Of a stretch of 21,867 bases of DNA, positions 1,739 to 11,483 are shown piece by piece; position 1 is the first letter of the stretch, and the number at the start of each line of letters is the position of its first letter. The notes below the pieces were generated by a model. It had not been told where the DNA came from. It saw only the letters and a list, made by a program, of their open reading frames with translations, and searched no databases. The position numbers and the translations under genes were made by a program. Source of the stretch: a virus; IMG/VR virus record IMGVR_UViG_3300044633_000215, positions 1 to 21,867 of that record; one strand, given 5' to 3'.

Positions 1739-4129
1739 TTAATCAATTTCAACAATAGAAGCTGTTGCCACACCAACATAAGTATTAGTAGTCGGCGTAA
1801 ATGGCACTGAAATTGTACTATTAACTACCGGTACAAAAGTGTTTGCTTGTGCAAGACTAATATTTGTTCCTGTTCCTGAGTAAGCTATACCTGAGGTACC
1901 AGAATTCCAATAAGTTACATTGTTAATTTGTGTAGTATTAAATGATTTACTTGTCCACGTTATTAAATCTGTAGAACGGTATAGTGTTGAACCGTTAGTT
2001 AACCAATAATTTGCTCCATCATAGGTTAGCTTGTTAGTTGAATAATTTGAGGCGGTATAGTTTGTACCTGTTTTTTGTGTAAAAGCATCTACTACACCTG
2101 TTGCAGAAGTGGCAATTCCTGTAGTAGAAATAAACACGTTTTGTGAATTAAAATAATAAATTGAGTCAACGGTACTTTGCATTGTTGACCACGTTATTCC
2201 ATCTGTACTAACAAGAGTCAATCCGGCAGTAGTCATAGCCCAAAATTTACCGTTGTTATAAGTTAAGCATTTTGAGTTTCGCAAAGTTTGTGGATTAGTA
2301 AAACTTGAAGCGCCTACAGAACCAAACGTCCATGAAACGCCTTGGTTACTTGTTGTCCCAACATAACCGTTATTCCAAAGTATTACCAAAATACTATTAG
2401 ATGCGTCACCGCTTCTTGCAAATCCTACTACTGGCACGCCACCACCACCAGCACTAGTCCAATTAAATCCCGCAGGATTAGGGCCAAAATACGCAGGATT
2501 ACCCATGTAAGGATTAAAGCCAGAAGAATAACTATCAGCTATCCAAACATATCCTGTATTTGTACCGCCTAGATATTTTGATGAATTAGGCATTACACCA
2601 ATTGAAATACCCTGACCCGCTTGGTATCCATAAGAGGGTTGATAAATACCATAAGAATATTGACCATCAGCTCCTTGATTAGGACCAGTACCATAGTAAA
2701 AACCGCCGGTATAAGGACTAATTGCGCCATACGTTATTGCAACCCATGAGCCATCAAAAGGATTGCCCGCAAATACGGGAACAATATTGATTGTGAGTTG
2801 TCCATTGGTTATGTTGGTACTAGAAAAACTAAAATTTTGATTACTCAAAACACCGCTTGAACTTATGTTACAACCTTGAAAATAATGAGAATTTGCCGCA
2901 TATTGATAAATTAAACATTTATTTTGATAGCTTGCGTTTGATGTATTATCATAAGCAGGACTAATACTGTAGTTTCCAGAAGTGCTATAGGCTGTTAAAA
3001 AACTAGCTTGATTAGCAGTCCATGATACTCCATCACTTGAACTAAGATACCACATTGTTGCATCGTTAGTGTATCGTTGATAAGTGTACCCGCCATTAGC
3101 GGCGTAATGCGGAAATCCGTAATAACTTGTAAGAGAACCACCCGCGCCTGAGGTATTTACAACAGACCAACTTACACCATCTGCGCTTTGTCTAAGAACA
3201 TTATTTGGTGAGCTATTTTGAACATTGGTAGATGTAACAAGAACTTTATTTGGTGATGCGGCAATTGCCCCTGTAGAATTAAAACCAGTTATTGAAGAAA
3301 CGTAAGGTTGTGTATAGCTTGTAAAGTTTGCTGTGTAATATGAAATACCACTAGTTCCATAAAAATAATTAGTGCCAATATACGCAATTGCTCTAATAGT
3401 GTTACCAAGAAACACAGTAGCCGCAGTCCAACTCAACGGCGTTGTAGTTGCATAGTAACTATATCCACTATCACCACCAGTTACAAATTTACCGCCCCCA
3501 TACGTTAGCGCATAACAAGGATAAGTGGAAGGTAATGTAACTTGTGTCCACGTTATTAAATCTGTACTGTAATGAATTGTTCCACCCGTTGCATTACAAA
3601 CTACATAATATCCATTTCCATATACAACATTAGTTAATTGAACCGCAACATTAAATGTTCTTTGCGTATAAGTTATTCCGTTTGTGCTTGTTAAAATTAA
3701 ACCAAAACCAGTTGAGTTATCTATACCAACAGCAATGTAGTTTCCGTTAAAATAATTAAAATTTGCAATTTTATAATTGACGCTAGAGGCGGCAATTTCT
3801 GCCTTGTAATAGCTTGTATCACTAGTTGAAATTGAAATTGAATCGCCCGCCGCAAGCGTAATTGGTGCTTGTAATAGGTTGAGTGTTTTAATACCTGTAT
3901 ATTGATAATATTGTGAGCTTGCATTAGCGTATCCCGTTGTTTGAGCTTGAACAACAGGATATGTTATACCGCCCGATACTTTATTTACTGTAACTATATC
4001 TGACGACCCAACCAAAGATGAAGCAAGCACACCTTTGACAATTGCAGTTTGACCCGCCGGTACTGTATAAATTGATGTAGGCGTTGTCGAGTTATACAGA
4101 ACCGATGAAGAGATTGGAGTTTGTGCCAT
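1739..4129 (-). CDS. Propeller-repeat adhesin / tail fibre (796 aa)
   Basis: The first 110 residues form a beta-rich module (SIYTVPAGQTAIVKGVLASS). From about 120 to 760 there are around ten repeats of the form YGNGYYVV...GTIHYSTDLITWTQVT, including YGGGKFVTGG, YNNGKFWAMTTAGLTLVSTD and STDGITW or STDLITW. These look like sialidase/Asp-box style blades and suggest one or two beta-propellers that bind a surface sugar. The Asp-box is degenerate (SxDGxxW), so binding rather than cleavage is likely. Gene composition is markedly more AT-rich than neighbours and some repeats are identical at the DNA level. It follows the 574-aa fibre by 11 bases with an AAGGA site. A host-range determinant is the best guess. 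Confidence 0.85.
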   Translation of the reverse strand: MAQTPISSSVLYNSTTPTSIYTVPAGQTAIVKGVLASSLVGSSDIVTVNKVSGGITYPVVQAQTTGYANASSQYYQYTGIKTLNLLQAPITLAAGDSISISTSDTSYYKAEIAASSVNYKIANFNYFNGNYIAVGIDNSTGFGLILTSTNGITYTQRTFNVAVQLTNVVYGNGYYVVCNATGGTIHYSTDLITWTQVTLPSTYPCYALTYGGGKFVTGGDSGYSYYATTTPLSWTAATVFLGNTIRAIAYIGTNYFYGTSGISYYTANFTSYTQPYVSSITGFNSTGAIAASPNKVLVTSTNVQNSSPNNVLRQSADGVSWSVVNTSGAGGSLTSYYGFPHYAANGGYTYQRYTNDATMWYLSSSDGVSWTANQASFLTAYSTSGNYSISPAYDNTSNASYQNKCLIYQYAANSHYFQGCNISSSGVLSNQNFSFSSTNITNGQLTINIVPVFAGNPFDGSWVAITYGAISPYTGGFYYGTGPNQGADGQYSYGIYQPSYGYQAGQGISIGVMPNSSKYLGGTNTGYVWIADSYSSGFNPYMGNPAYFGPNPAGFNWTSAGGGGVPVVGFARSGDASNSILVILWNNGYVGTTSNQGVSWTFGSVGASSFTNPQTLRNSKCLTYNNGKFWAMTTAGLTLVSTDGITWSTMQSTVDSIYYFNSQNVFISTTGIATSATGVVDAFTQKTGTNYTASNYSTNKLTYDGANYWLTNGSTLYRSTDLITWTSKSFNTTQINNVTYWNSGTSGIAYSGTGTNISLAQANTFVPVVNSTISVPFTPTTNTYVGVATASIVEID
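1953..1973 (-). repeat. 21-bp direct repeat inside the adhesin gene, copy 1
   Basis: This stretch is identical to 3546-3566, and both encode the STDLITWT repeat core in the same frame. A diverged relative lies near 2185-2205. The identity points to recent duplication or gene conversion between propeller blades. Confidence 0.85.
3546..3566 (-). repeat. 21-bp direct repeat inside the adhesin gene, copy 2
   Basis: Identical copy of 1953-1973, about 1.6 kb away in the same gene. Recombination between the two would delete about two thirds of the adhesin in frame. Confidence 0.85.
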
Positions 4130-4140
4130 GATTTATCCTT

Positions 4141-5865
4141 TTAACCCATGAAATACCAAAGAAGTGAATTATCAGCGACAGAAAGCGTTGCCCATGTTGG
4201 CGCGCCTGCTCCATTACTGGTGAGAATTTGTCCTGCTGTGCCGGCGGCAGTAAACGCTGTTGTGCTAGGTGCAGTTTGGTAGGGCATTGCGCCTGCAACA
4301 CCACCAGCTAGGTTTGTTGCTGTACCAATCACAATAGCAGAAGGTGTGCTCCATACAGGTGGTGTTACGTTTCCTGTGCTTGTCAGAATCTGGTTTAAAA
4401 CACCAAAGTTTCCGTTAAACGCAACAGCACCTGTAGCGTTGATTGTCATCGAGTCCGCCGCGTTATCGTTGGTCACCAAACGCAACTCGTGCGCTGTCTT
4501 TGTACCAACAACTAAATCAGAATCTGTAGAGTACAAATAAACTGCATTAGGTAATTGGAAAGGCCCAATACCCGCATGTGTTGAACTATTCATACCAAAG
4601 TCACCGTAGTACGTGGTTGCTGTACCTAGGTTGTTTGAAACAATGTAGTCTACTGAAGCAGATGTGCCATTACTCTTATTTTGAAGAATGTTTTGAGCGT
4701 AGCTATTTACTGTGGTTGCGTAAGAACCAAAAATGTTTGTGTCTAGGTATGAAGTTGTTCCATAGCTGTACGCCCCAATGTTTGAAGAAGCAACAATGGA
4801 CTGATTAGCAACAACATACGCGCCAGTGACAGAGGTTCCTGCTGACAACGATGTTGTTGCGCTAATAGAGGTGCCTGCACTGATTGCTGTGCCTGCGGCA
4901 ATTGTTGTTCCTGCACTGACACCTAAAGTGGCGCTAACTGAATTTGCACCCACCACACCAGTGGCAGTAATGTTTGTTGTGCCAACTGTGTTTGTCGCTG
5001 AGTTAAACGTCAGGTTTGAATTGAACGTTGTTGTGCTGGCACCGCTTTGGAACGGGATCTGGTACTGCGCGCCGCCAGAGATGTTAGTTGTTGTTGTTGC
5101 GGCTGGCGCTGACACCCACGCAAACGCGGACCCAGTCCAACCAAGCACAGTGCCGGTTAATGTTGGGGCGCCGATGAAAGACGTTGTGCTAGACGCTGTT
5201 TGGAACGGCAGTTGATTAGCCGCGCCGTTAGCCAAGTTGGTAGAGGTCGTTGCTGTGGTTGCTGACGTTGCTGAACCTGCGGTCGTGGCAAAACCTGCTG
5301 TAGCCGCACTACCCACAGACAAACTGGCTTGGCTTACAAACTGAGGTGCTGATCCTGTTGATGTCAGAACATAGTCTGTTGCGCCGATTGCAAGAGATGT
5401 AGGCGCAGTGCCTGTTGAGTAAACGATTGACCCAGCGGCTCCTATCGACGCATACACTGGCGCTGTACCGTTTGAGTACAGCAACGACCCCGCCGCGCCA
5501 AGTGCCGCAAACGCGGGCGCTGTGCCTGTCGAGTACACAATACCACCGGCAGTTGGGGCCACTGAGTACGCAGGCGTTGTGCCGTTTGAAAACAGCATGC
5601 GTCCTGCTGTACCAAGGGTCAAGTACGTGGTTGTGCTTGGCGCGCTTTGGTATACGAGAGCGCCTGCAGTACCGCCGGGCAAATTGCCCGTCGCTGTTGA
5701 AGAGTCTGCAAGGGTCTTAACGAGACCGCCGCTGTCTTTAAAATACAGTTTGCCGTCGGTGGTGTTCAGCGCCACCTCGCCGGCAATTAAATTGCCAGCA
5801 ATGGGCACCGCCGCCGCGGTGGAACTGAAATACAGTTGAATTGGTGTGAATCCCGCTTGTGCCAT
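4141..5865 (-). CDS. Repetitive tail fibre protein (574 aa)
   Basis: Residues 5-55 hold a module (QLYFSSTAAAVPIAGNLIAG, EVALNTTDGKLYFKDSGG) known from N-termini of phage fibres. Then come repeats of about 22 residues of the form GAAGSLLYSNGTAPVYASI (about 75-175), a low-complexity stretch (SAGTTIAAGTAISAGTSISA) near 300-345, and a C-terminal copy of the same repeat (AGGVAGAMPYQTAPSTTAFT, TAGQILTSNGAGAPTW). This is a trimeric fibre shaft with few aromatic or charged residues. It probably carries or supports receptor binding together with the next gene. The start has GAAGAAA upstream. No chaperone domain is visible. Confidence 0.85.
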   Translation of the reverse strand: MAQAGFTPIQLYFSSTAAAVPIAGNLIAGEVALNTTDGKLYFKDSGGLVKTLADSSTATGNLPGGTAGALVYQSAPSTTTYLTLGTAGRMLFSNGTTPAYSVAPTAGGIVYSTGTAPAFAALGAAGSLLYSNGTAPVYASIGAAGSIVYSTGTAPTSLAIGATDYVLTSTGSAPQFVSQASLSVGSAATAGFATTAGSATSATTATTSTNLANGAANQLPFQTASSTTSFIGAPTLTGTVLGWTGSAFAWVSAPAATTTTNISGGAQYQIPFQSGASTTTFNSNLTFNSATNTVGTTNITATGVVGANSVSATLGVSAGTTIAAGTAISAGTSISATTSLSAGTSVTGAYVVANQSIVASSNIGAYSYGTTSYLDTNIFGSYATTVNSYAQNILQNKSNGTSASVDYIVSNNLGTATTYYGDFGMNSSTHAGIGPFQLPNAVYLYSTDSDLVVGTKTAHELRLVTNDNAADSMTINATGAVAFNGNFGVLNQILTSTGNVTPPVWSTPSAIVIGTATNLAGGVAGAMPYQTAPSTTAFTAAGTAGQILTSNGAGAPTWATLSVADNSLLWYFMG

Positions 5866-7828: not shown

Positions 7829-7850
7829 CTCCTATAGATAATTACCCATA
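7829..7850 (-). promoter_or_regulatory. Promoter-like 22-bp repeated motif, copy B
   Basis: The minus strand reads TATGGGTAATT, then ATC, then TATAGGAG. It starts 3 bases after the terminator stem and ends 9 bases before the ATG at 7819, so AGGAG also serves as Shine-Dalgarno. The CTATAGG part recalls promoters of T7-like RNA polymerases, but the rest does not match any such promoter I know. Confidence 0.55.
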
Positions 7851-11346: not shown

Positions 11347-11413
11347 CTTTCCATAGAAAGATTACAGCATCGTCTCTATGGCGTCCGCCCGTGAGCTTTA
11401 CGGGTCGATGCTG
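11347..11413 (-). promoter_or_regulatory. Structured 5' leader with predicted pseudoknot, riboswitch-like
   Basis: On the minus strand an outer stem CAGCATCG/CGATGCTG (11406-11413 with 11365-11372) encloses an inner hairpin CCCGT/ACGGG (11400-11404 with 11388-11392). The loop segment CCATAGA (11375-11381) is perfectly complementary to TCTATGG (11351-11357) downstream of the outer stem, giving an H-type pseudoknot. That downstream segment contains the first GG of the Shine-Dalgarno GGAAAG. A competing hairpin, CTTTC-TATG-GAAAG (11347-11360), also hides it. Two exclusive structures over the ribosome site suggest translational control of the gene at 11337. I do not recognise a known RNA family. 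Confidence 0.55.
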
Positions 11414-11420
11414 ATTATAG

Positions 11421-11442
11421 CTCTTACATAGAATTACCCATA
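11421..11442 (-). promoter_or_regulatory. Promoter-like 22-bp repeated motif, copy C
   Basis: The minus strand reads TATGGGTAATT, then CTA, then TGTAAGAG. The first 11 bases are identical to copy B at 7829-7850. It directly follows the capsid terminator and precedes the structured leader of the gene at 11337. Unlike the other two copies, its 3' part cannot be a ribosome binding site, since the start codon is about 80 bases further on; this argues for a transcriptional role. A TATAAT occurs just downstream (11414-11419) with no recognisable -35 box. Confidence 0.55.
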
Positions 11443-11453
11443 TCCACAAACAA

Positions 11454-11483
11454 AAACGCCCTACCTTTGCAGGTAGGGCGTTT
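11454..11483 (-). terminator. Strong intrinsic terminator after the capsid gene
   Basis: On the minus strand a 12-bp perfect stem (AAACGCCCTACC and its complement) encloses a 6-base loop (TGCAAA) and is followed by TT in addition to the stem's own T's (TTTTTG). It lies 38 bases after the capsid stop. It should end most transcription from the head unit and sits only about 12 bases before the next promoter-like motif. Confidence 0.93.

Follow-up and report, generated by a model that had tools for sequence, protein, structure and literature searches.

A covarying double-pseudoknot RNA leader at the ribosome site of cement-like genes in freshwater and marine phages

Several known RNAs place a compact fold where the ribosome lands. 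In the SAM-II, preQ1-II and glutamine-II riboswitches, the 3′ strand of an H-type pseudoknot lies at the ribosome site. A further RNA, Mu-gpT-DE (RF03012), was reportedly introduced by a 2017 paper and stands in Rfam as an 'sRNA' whose characteristic place is right behind a gpT-type capsid gene. In phage messengers, the gene 32 leader of T4, T2 and RB69 carries a pseudoknot upstream of the ribosome site that has been linked to translational control (PMC3014915). Here we describe a leader found in a viral DNA of 21,867 nucleotides (IMGVR_UViG_3300044633_000215, positions 1 to 21,867; the whole stretch is called the window hereafter), where it occupies positions 11423-11351 of the minus strand. 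We read it, with a probability of roughly 0.6, as the whole 5′ UTR of the mRNA of a cement gene and as a cis-acting element controlling its translation. Like the gene 32 leader, it is a pseudoknot of a phage mRNA leader upstream of a ribosome site, but the former is a simple H-type fold, followed by an unstructured stretch up to the ribosome binding site and bound by a single-stranded DNA-binding protein, whereas the cement leader combines two pseudoknots with an inner hairpin, abuts the Shine-Dalgarno sequence and precedes a capsid gene. With the three riboswitches it shares the 3′ strand of an H-type pseudoknot at the ribosome site, and it departs from them in having a hairpin before the 5′ strand of that pseudoknot, with a loop that pairs with the 5′ end, and in lacking both an Rfam match and a metabolic gene.

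The minus strand of the window can be read as four helices: an outer stem (P1), an inner hairpin (P2) and two pseudoknots (K1 and K2), whose positions are given in Table 1. P1 encloses P2, the loop of P2 pairs back with the 5′ end to form K1, and the linker between P2 and P1 pairs forward, close to the Shine-Dalgarno sequence, to form K2. Most of this had been noticed in a sequence-only reading, which proposed the 8-bp outer stem, the 5-bp inner hairpin and an H-type pseudoknot between CCATAGA and TCTATGG (7 bp, or 9 bp counting one G-U). All of them are present on the minus strand, and the last is kept as a helix by covariation; its downstream partner does contain part of GGAAAG, as had been said. 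On the other hand, the pairing of GAGCT with AGCTC, put forward as a mere possible contact, proved to be a full second pseudoknot, K1, which also covaries, and in this regard the original observation was right and understated.

Table 1. Features of the leader and its surroundings in the window, and Mu-gpT-DE leaders found in distant loci.
Feature	Position	Strand	Remarks
gpT-type major capsid protein P0002	11521..12438	-	PF25209 and PF10124 above cut-off; phrog_371
Intrinsic terminator	11454..11483	-	after major capsid gene; 13-bp stem and T-run; separates gene from leader
Promoter-like block GGGCG-N15-ATGGGTAATTCTATGTAAGAG	11421..11461	-	GGGC-to-K1a distance constant across clades; 3 copies in window
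K1a GAGCU	11419..11423	-	5′ strand of K1, at inferred transcription start; sequence, covariation, promoter spacing
P1a CAGCAUCG (DNA CAGCATCG)	11406..11413	-	outer stem 5′ strand, 8 bp; sequence, covariation
P2a CCCGU	11400..11404	-	inner hairpin 5′ strand, 5 bp; sequence, covariation
K1b AGCUC	11393..11397	-	within P2 loop, K1 3′ strand; sequence, covariation
P2b ACGGG	11388..11392	-	inner hairpin 3′ strand; sequence, covariation
Conserved unpaired GACG	11382..11385	-	between P2 and K2a; columns kept in both alignments
K2a CCAUAGA	11375..11381	-	K2 5′ strand; sequence, covariation
P1b CGAUGCUG (DNA CGATGCTG)	11365..11372	-	outer stem 3′ strand; sequence, covariation
K2b UCUAUGG	11351..11357	-	K2 3′ strand; sequence, covariation
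Shine-Dalgarno GGAAAG	11347..11352	-	2-nt overlap with K2 3′ strand; 9 nt before ATG (11337)
177-aa cement/decoration-like protein P0001	10804..11337	-	ORF; AF2 model with pLDDT 85
Mu-gpT-DE RF03012, L472	2496-2548		directly before SGP-type cement gene
Mu-gpT-DE RF03012, L454	2703-2756		directly before SGP-type cement gene
Mu-gpT-DE RF03012, L461	2699-2751		directly before SGP-type cement gene
Mu-gpT-DE RF03012, L466	1216-1267		directly before SGP-type cement gene

Covariation in both stems and in the pseudoknot had been named beforehand as the decisive support for this fold, and it was found in P1, P2, K1 and K2. For the comparison, IMG/VR supplied 80 sequences homologous to the cement gene and as many homologous to the capsid gene. 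When 72 close leaders were aligned with MAFFT, blind to structure, 81.7% of the cells were able to pair, against 68.1% in shuffled controls, which ignore phylogeny, and 34-54% in slid ones, with changes on both sides in 24 of the 26 pairs. Given that such shuffles leave phylogeny aside, more distant cases were sought, and a second structure-blind alignment of 44 distant leaders gave 81.4% of pairing cells, against 58.8% (shuffled, likewise without phylogeny) and 27-45% (slid), and changes on both sides in all 21 pairs. A strict four-helix descriptor, composed after the pattern had been seen and missing the internal loop of P1 present in most close relatives, was satisfied by 24 of 95 close leaders versus 3 of 190 dinucleotide-shuffled sequences, and by 50 of 69 distant leaders versus 5 of 207. 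K1 and K2 each hold separately in the close set, K1 with variants such as GGAAG/CUUCC, GAGC/GCUC, GGUAGA/UCUACC and AGAGGA/UCCUCU, and K2 with 5 bp in 69 of the 72 leaders, in the form of 8 different helices. The exceptions are the close leaders L031, L094 and L095, which have no clean K2, and the distant L434, which by eye behaves likewise. Unpaired conserved letters are few and follow the order GAC-P2-GACG-K2a-nAGAC. In the distant set the GAC before P2, the GACG after P2 and the AGAC after K2a are all that remains of them. Judging from these alignments, the four pairings are real: compensatory changes have preserved them even among relatives that share hardly any sequence. The picture is different for a possible switch, also suggested by the sequence-only reading. 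The rival hairpin CTTTC-TATG-GAAAG can certainly be read in the window, but no counterpart was seen by eye in other clades, nor, likewise by eye, was a pairing of K1b with the Shine-Dalgarno sequence, considered in the close group, seen across them, and a conserved two-state switch is not supported.

Nearly all the sequences compared are metagenomic contigs. The way to the distant set went through L155, a close phage with the usual leader and an unrelated protein behind it: relatives of that protein pointed to L386 and L387, whose leaders have the same architecture and almost no sequence in common with that of the window, and the capsid protein of L386 led in turn to 80 further loci and to annotated phages. 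Among the latter, the leader is present in the cultured Pelagibacter phages HTVC023P and HTVC027P, as well as in the phage record DSL-LC04, in 023Pt and in record MW202675. Pelagibacter (SAR11) is a very abundant bacterium of the ocean, and the presence of the leader in its cultured phages makes it testable in isolates. In HTVC023P, the leader reads K1 CCUAG/CUAGG, P1 AUUUUGUAG/CUACAAAAU, P2 CUG/CAG and K2 GUAUAG/CUAUAC, followed by AGGAG and AUG. There is one copy per genome, and the carriers are freshwater and marine bacterial viruses, known from many contigs, at least the matches listed by two pattern scans. Neither this leader nor RF03012 occupies the equivalent slot of Caulobacter phage RW, MW202545, Alcaligenes phage QDWS535 or Planktothrix phage Pag-Yong1, and DNA and protein similarity searches of a phage collection with the leader of a relative or with P0001 gave no match. 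A scan of genome contigs with GACGACTYAGAGACAG returned 54 matches, no more than expected by chance, of which only two hold the RNA: L191 (3547-3646), in a contig binned to the MAG of a beta-proteobacterium, and L208 (1195-1294), in one binned to a Verrucomicrobia MAG. Both may be phage contigs binned together with their hosts.

The genes around the leader in the window all lie on the minus strand. A core-motif scan, blind to genes, recovered at least 80 contigs, and in all 80 listed the motif precedes an SGP-type gene: it stands directly before a gene whose product shows the strict (T)TF-GP pattern in 72, before clear variants (e.g., HYSGPL) in seven, and before a gene cut by the contig edge in the remaining one. 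A gpT-type capsid gene is found directly upstream of the leader, the location also characteristic of RF03012, both in the window and in 62 of the 62 listed contigs with at least 900 nt of upstream sequence. The downstream protein of the window, P0001, has no match in Pfam or PHROG. The best structural matches of its AF2 model are the phage capsid or cement chains 8h89_J, 7eel_H, 7dn2_1 and 7dou_4; in the top five, capsid or cement chains from GP4, Pam1, KHP30 and KHP40 take four places, with Z from 8.1 to 7.2, where values under 8 can reflect a common arrangement, and with Foldseek E values above 1e-3. Sequence identity with these cement proteins is only 14-19%. The gene at the same slot in DSL-LC04 is annotated as 'cement protein'. 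The earlier description of the gene as decoration-like receives moderate support from the fold.

A common short N-terminal peptide of the type (T)TFSGPV runs through 208 downstream proteins. Without their first 24 residues, these proteins sort into 13 families of bodies by single linkage, a lower bound on their sequence relatedness that leaves room for remote homology between bodies. Across the downstream proteins of L389-L560, 13 or more unrelated bodies of 77-237 aa follow this constant N-terminus, as if the peptide were a capsid anchor with exchangeable display domains. As the leader stays the same while the bodies behind it are swapped, autoregulation through the variable part of the cement protein is ruled out; of the former proposal that the structural protein itself binds the leader, only the constant N-terminal part survives as a candidate. 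An autogenous repression of this kind, in which the cement protein would bind the leader through the peptide and shut off translation of its own message, in the manner of T4 gp32 at its leader pseudoknot (PMC3014915), would fit with leader and peptide being the two constant parts while the bodies vary, but these belong to at least 13 unrelated families, and the peptide, besides being short, has no marked basic character in the distant group. We consider it unlikely as a separate explanation, and it is partly contained in the translational control that we favour. That different bodies follow one and the same leader and N-terminal start could also be the trace of a conserved DNA recombination anchor for swapping cement bodies, the fold being incidental. 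This is hardly credible to us: a DNA homology anchor gives no reason to expect compensatory changes in all four helices where sequence identity has been lost.

We also compared the window and 29 relatives with all 4227 families of Rfam 15 by cmscan. The leader matched none of them, ribozyme families included, and the sub-threshold matches fell on terminators or were due to chance, as was the best one at the leader (RAGATH-18, 15.3 bits versus a threshold of 44.9). No published description of such a leader was found among open-licence papers, and the leader represents a structured RNA class that we met neither in Rfam 15 nor in the open-licence literature. The comparison with SAM-II and glutamine-II made in the sequence-only reading did not extend to a match with these Rfam models, nor with that of preQ1-II. 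A compact pseudoknot at the ribosome site, as in SAM-II or preQ1-II, would still be compatible with a new class of ligand-binding riboswitch. However, the gene behind it is structural, and among the 80 core-motif contigs listed it is never one for transport or metabolism; with very few conserved unpaired letters and no Rfam match besides, metabolite sensing finds no support and such a riboswitch appears highly improbable.

Around 17 distant loci carry a different leader (type II) at the same slot, four of those scanned being identified as Mu-gpT-DE by cmscan (L454, L461, L466 and L472, with 52.7-72.3 bits for RF03012; Table 1) and the rest by eye. Both types sit after a gpT-type capsid gene and before an SGP-type cement gene, and end at the Shine-Dalgarno sequence and ATG, and the phages that carry them are sisters whose capsid proteins are related. 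They differ in fold, as Mu-gpT-DE is a 53-nt RNA formed by a nested CCUG/CAGG stem, which includes the Shine-Dalgarno sequence, and one hairpin, without the double pseudoknot. RF03012 at 49 bits or more had no match in the window, in 12 close relatives or in the type I (double-pseudoknot) phages tested, and between RF03012 and the type I leaders tested there was no match in either direction. Its place directly before the cement gene, with the Shine-Dalgarno sequence in the outer stem, suggests that the 'sRNA' Mu-gpT-DE is really a translational leader.

Upstream of K1a we find a repeated promoter-like block, GGGC(A/G)-N15-17-ATGGGTAATT..TATAGGAG, with the genome-specific variants GCGTATTAGTA and TTTGCATTAGTA in relatives. 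A phage promoter is the most likely identity, because the block recurs in the window (minus strand, at 11441, 7849 and 20144, spanning 11461-11421, 7869-7829 and about 20164-20124) and 3-6 times in each of the relatives G005, G006 and G010. The leader resulting from the copies at 7849 and 20144 is only about a dozen nucleotides long. In close relatives, GGGC(G/A) lies 35-38 nt before K1a and is followed by ATTAGTA..TATAGG or GGGTAATT.., and the block finishes at K1a. A search for T7-type RNA polymerase (PF00940) gave no match in 17 records, nor in the control. The distant relatives, which are devoid of the block, show instead a sigma-70-type −10 element (score of at least 5 in 71% of cases versus 19% when shuffled) that most often ends 9 nt before K1a. 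Since two different promoter types, in close and distant phages, indicate the same point, transcription probably starts at K1a or within about 3 nt of it. At the other end, K2 finishes 8-16 nt before the ATG in the distant relatives, with the Shine-Dalgarno sequence starting between −3 and +5 nt relative to the end of K2. A start at K1a and such a tight placement of K2 suggest that the leader is the entire 5′ UTR of the cement-gene mRNA. In a pelagiphage transcriptome paper (PMC12753301), the main text gives neither gene-level values nor a start site for the cement gene.

A 5′ end of this kind admits other uses. The compact 5′-terminal fold could be an unregulated mRNA-stability element hiding the end from RppH and RNase E (or RNase J), which would agree with K1 engaging the very start of the transcript, at a fixed promoter spacing, in close and distant leaders alike, with a structural product that is presumably needed in many copies, and with no sensor-like conserved core beyond GAC/GACG/AGAC. 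We find this doubtful, as a simple 5′ hairpin would suffice, and neither the constant placement of K2 at the Shine-Dalgarno sequence nor the Shine-Dalgarno-containing stem of RF03012 in sister phages would be explained. Double pseudoknots are also common among ribozymes, but for a self-cleaving ribozyme or an RNA-processing signal, a start at K1a would leave almost no 5′ fragment to be cleaved, and together with the failure of all Rfam ribozyme families to match, this makes the idea very difficult to sustain.

Translational control by the leader is argued from the fact that two unrelated folds, each of them lying at the ribosome site, fill the same slot. As in other H-type leaders of ribosome sites, the 3′ strand of the pseudoknot adjoins or overlaps the Shine-Dalgarno sequence and covaries. 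Such control would allow cement output to be set separately from that of the capsid protein, from whose gene the cement gene is split by a terminator and by its own promoter. In the proposed mechanism, P1 would close around P2, with K1 tying the first nucleotides of the transcript and K2 those before or overlapping the Shine-Dalgarno sequence. A closed K2 would put a helix inside the 30S footprint, and initiation would be lowered until K2 opens or some factor shifts the balance, while K1 would mask the 5′ end and its Shine-Dalgarno-like GGAG/GGAAG start, and should slow 5′-end-dependent decay. It is from its position that the leader is called regulated, because no alternative pairing was seen by eye across clades, and the folded leader might permit or even help initiation, given that in most leaders the Shine-Dalgarno sequence abuts K2 rather than overlapping it. 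Because one leader serves 13 or more unrelated bodies, a protein effector would have to be a thing that all of them share. Candidates are their N-terminal (T)TFSGPV peptide, the product of the gpT-type capsid gene just upstream, and host factors, for instance the ribosome itself. As a tentative extension, which we put forward with reserve, the leader could belong to a new class of phage riboregulators that sense how far capsid assembly has gone. Free gpT-type capsid protein, or else the N-terminal anchor common to the cement proteins, would bind to the double pseudoknot and so determine the translation of any cement body placed behind it. Such a portable 'capsid-sensing' leader would have been reached by convergence in two unrelated RNA folds, the other being Mu-gpT-DE. 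Altogether, the position of the leader at the ribosome landing site suggests that it controls the amount of cement protein. Together with Mu-gpT-DE, it suggests that control at the RNA level is exerted in the capsid-cement slot by two unrelated folds or more, which offers a handle on how the proportion of capsid to decoration protein is set in phages.

A minor observation concerns the stretch between the capsid terminator and the leader promoter, where L106 has a small inserted ORF (3980-4441). It has no match to a Pfam family, and its end (..VDHIIPLQGK..) is reminiscent of HNH endonucleases. Similar insertions of small ORFs occur in L103, L107, L111 and L113-L115.
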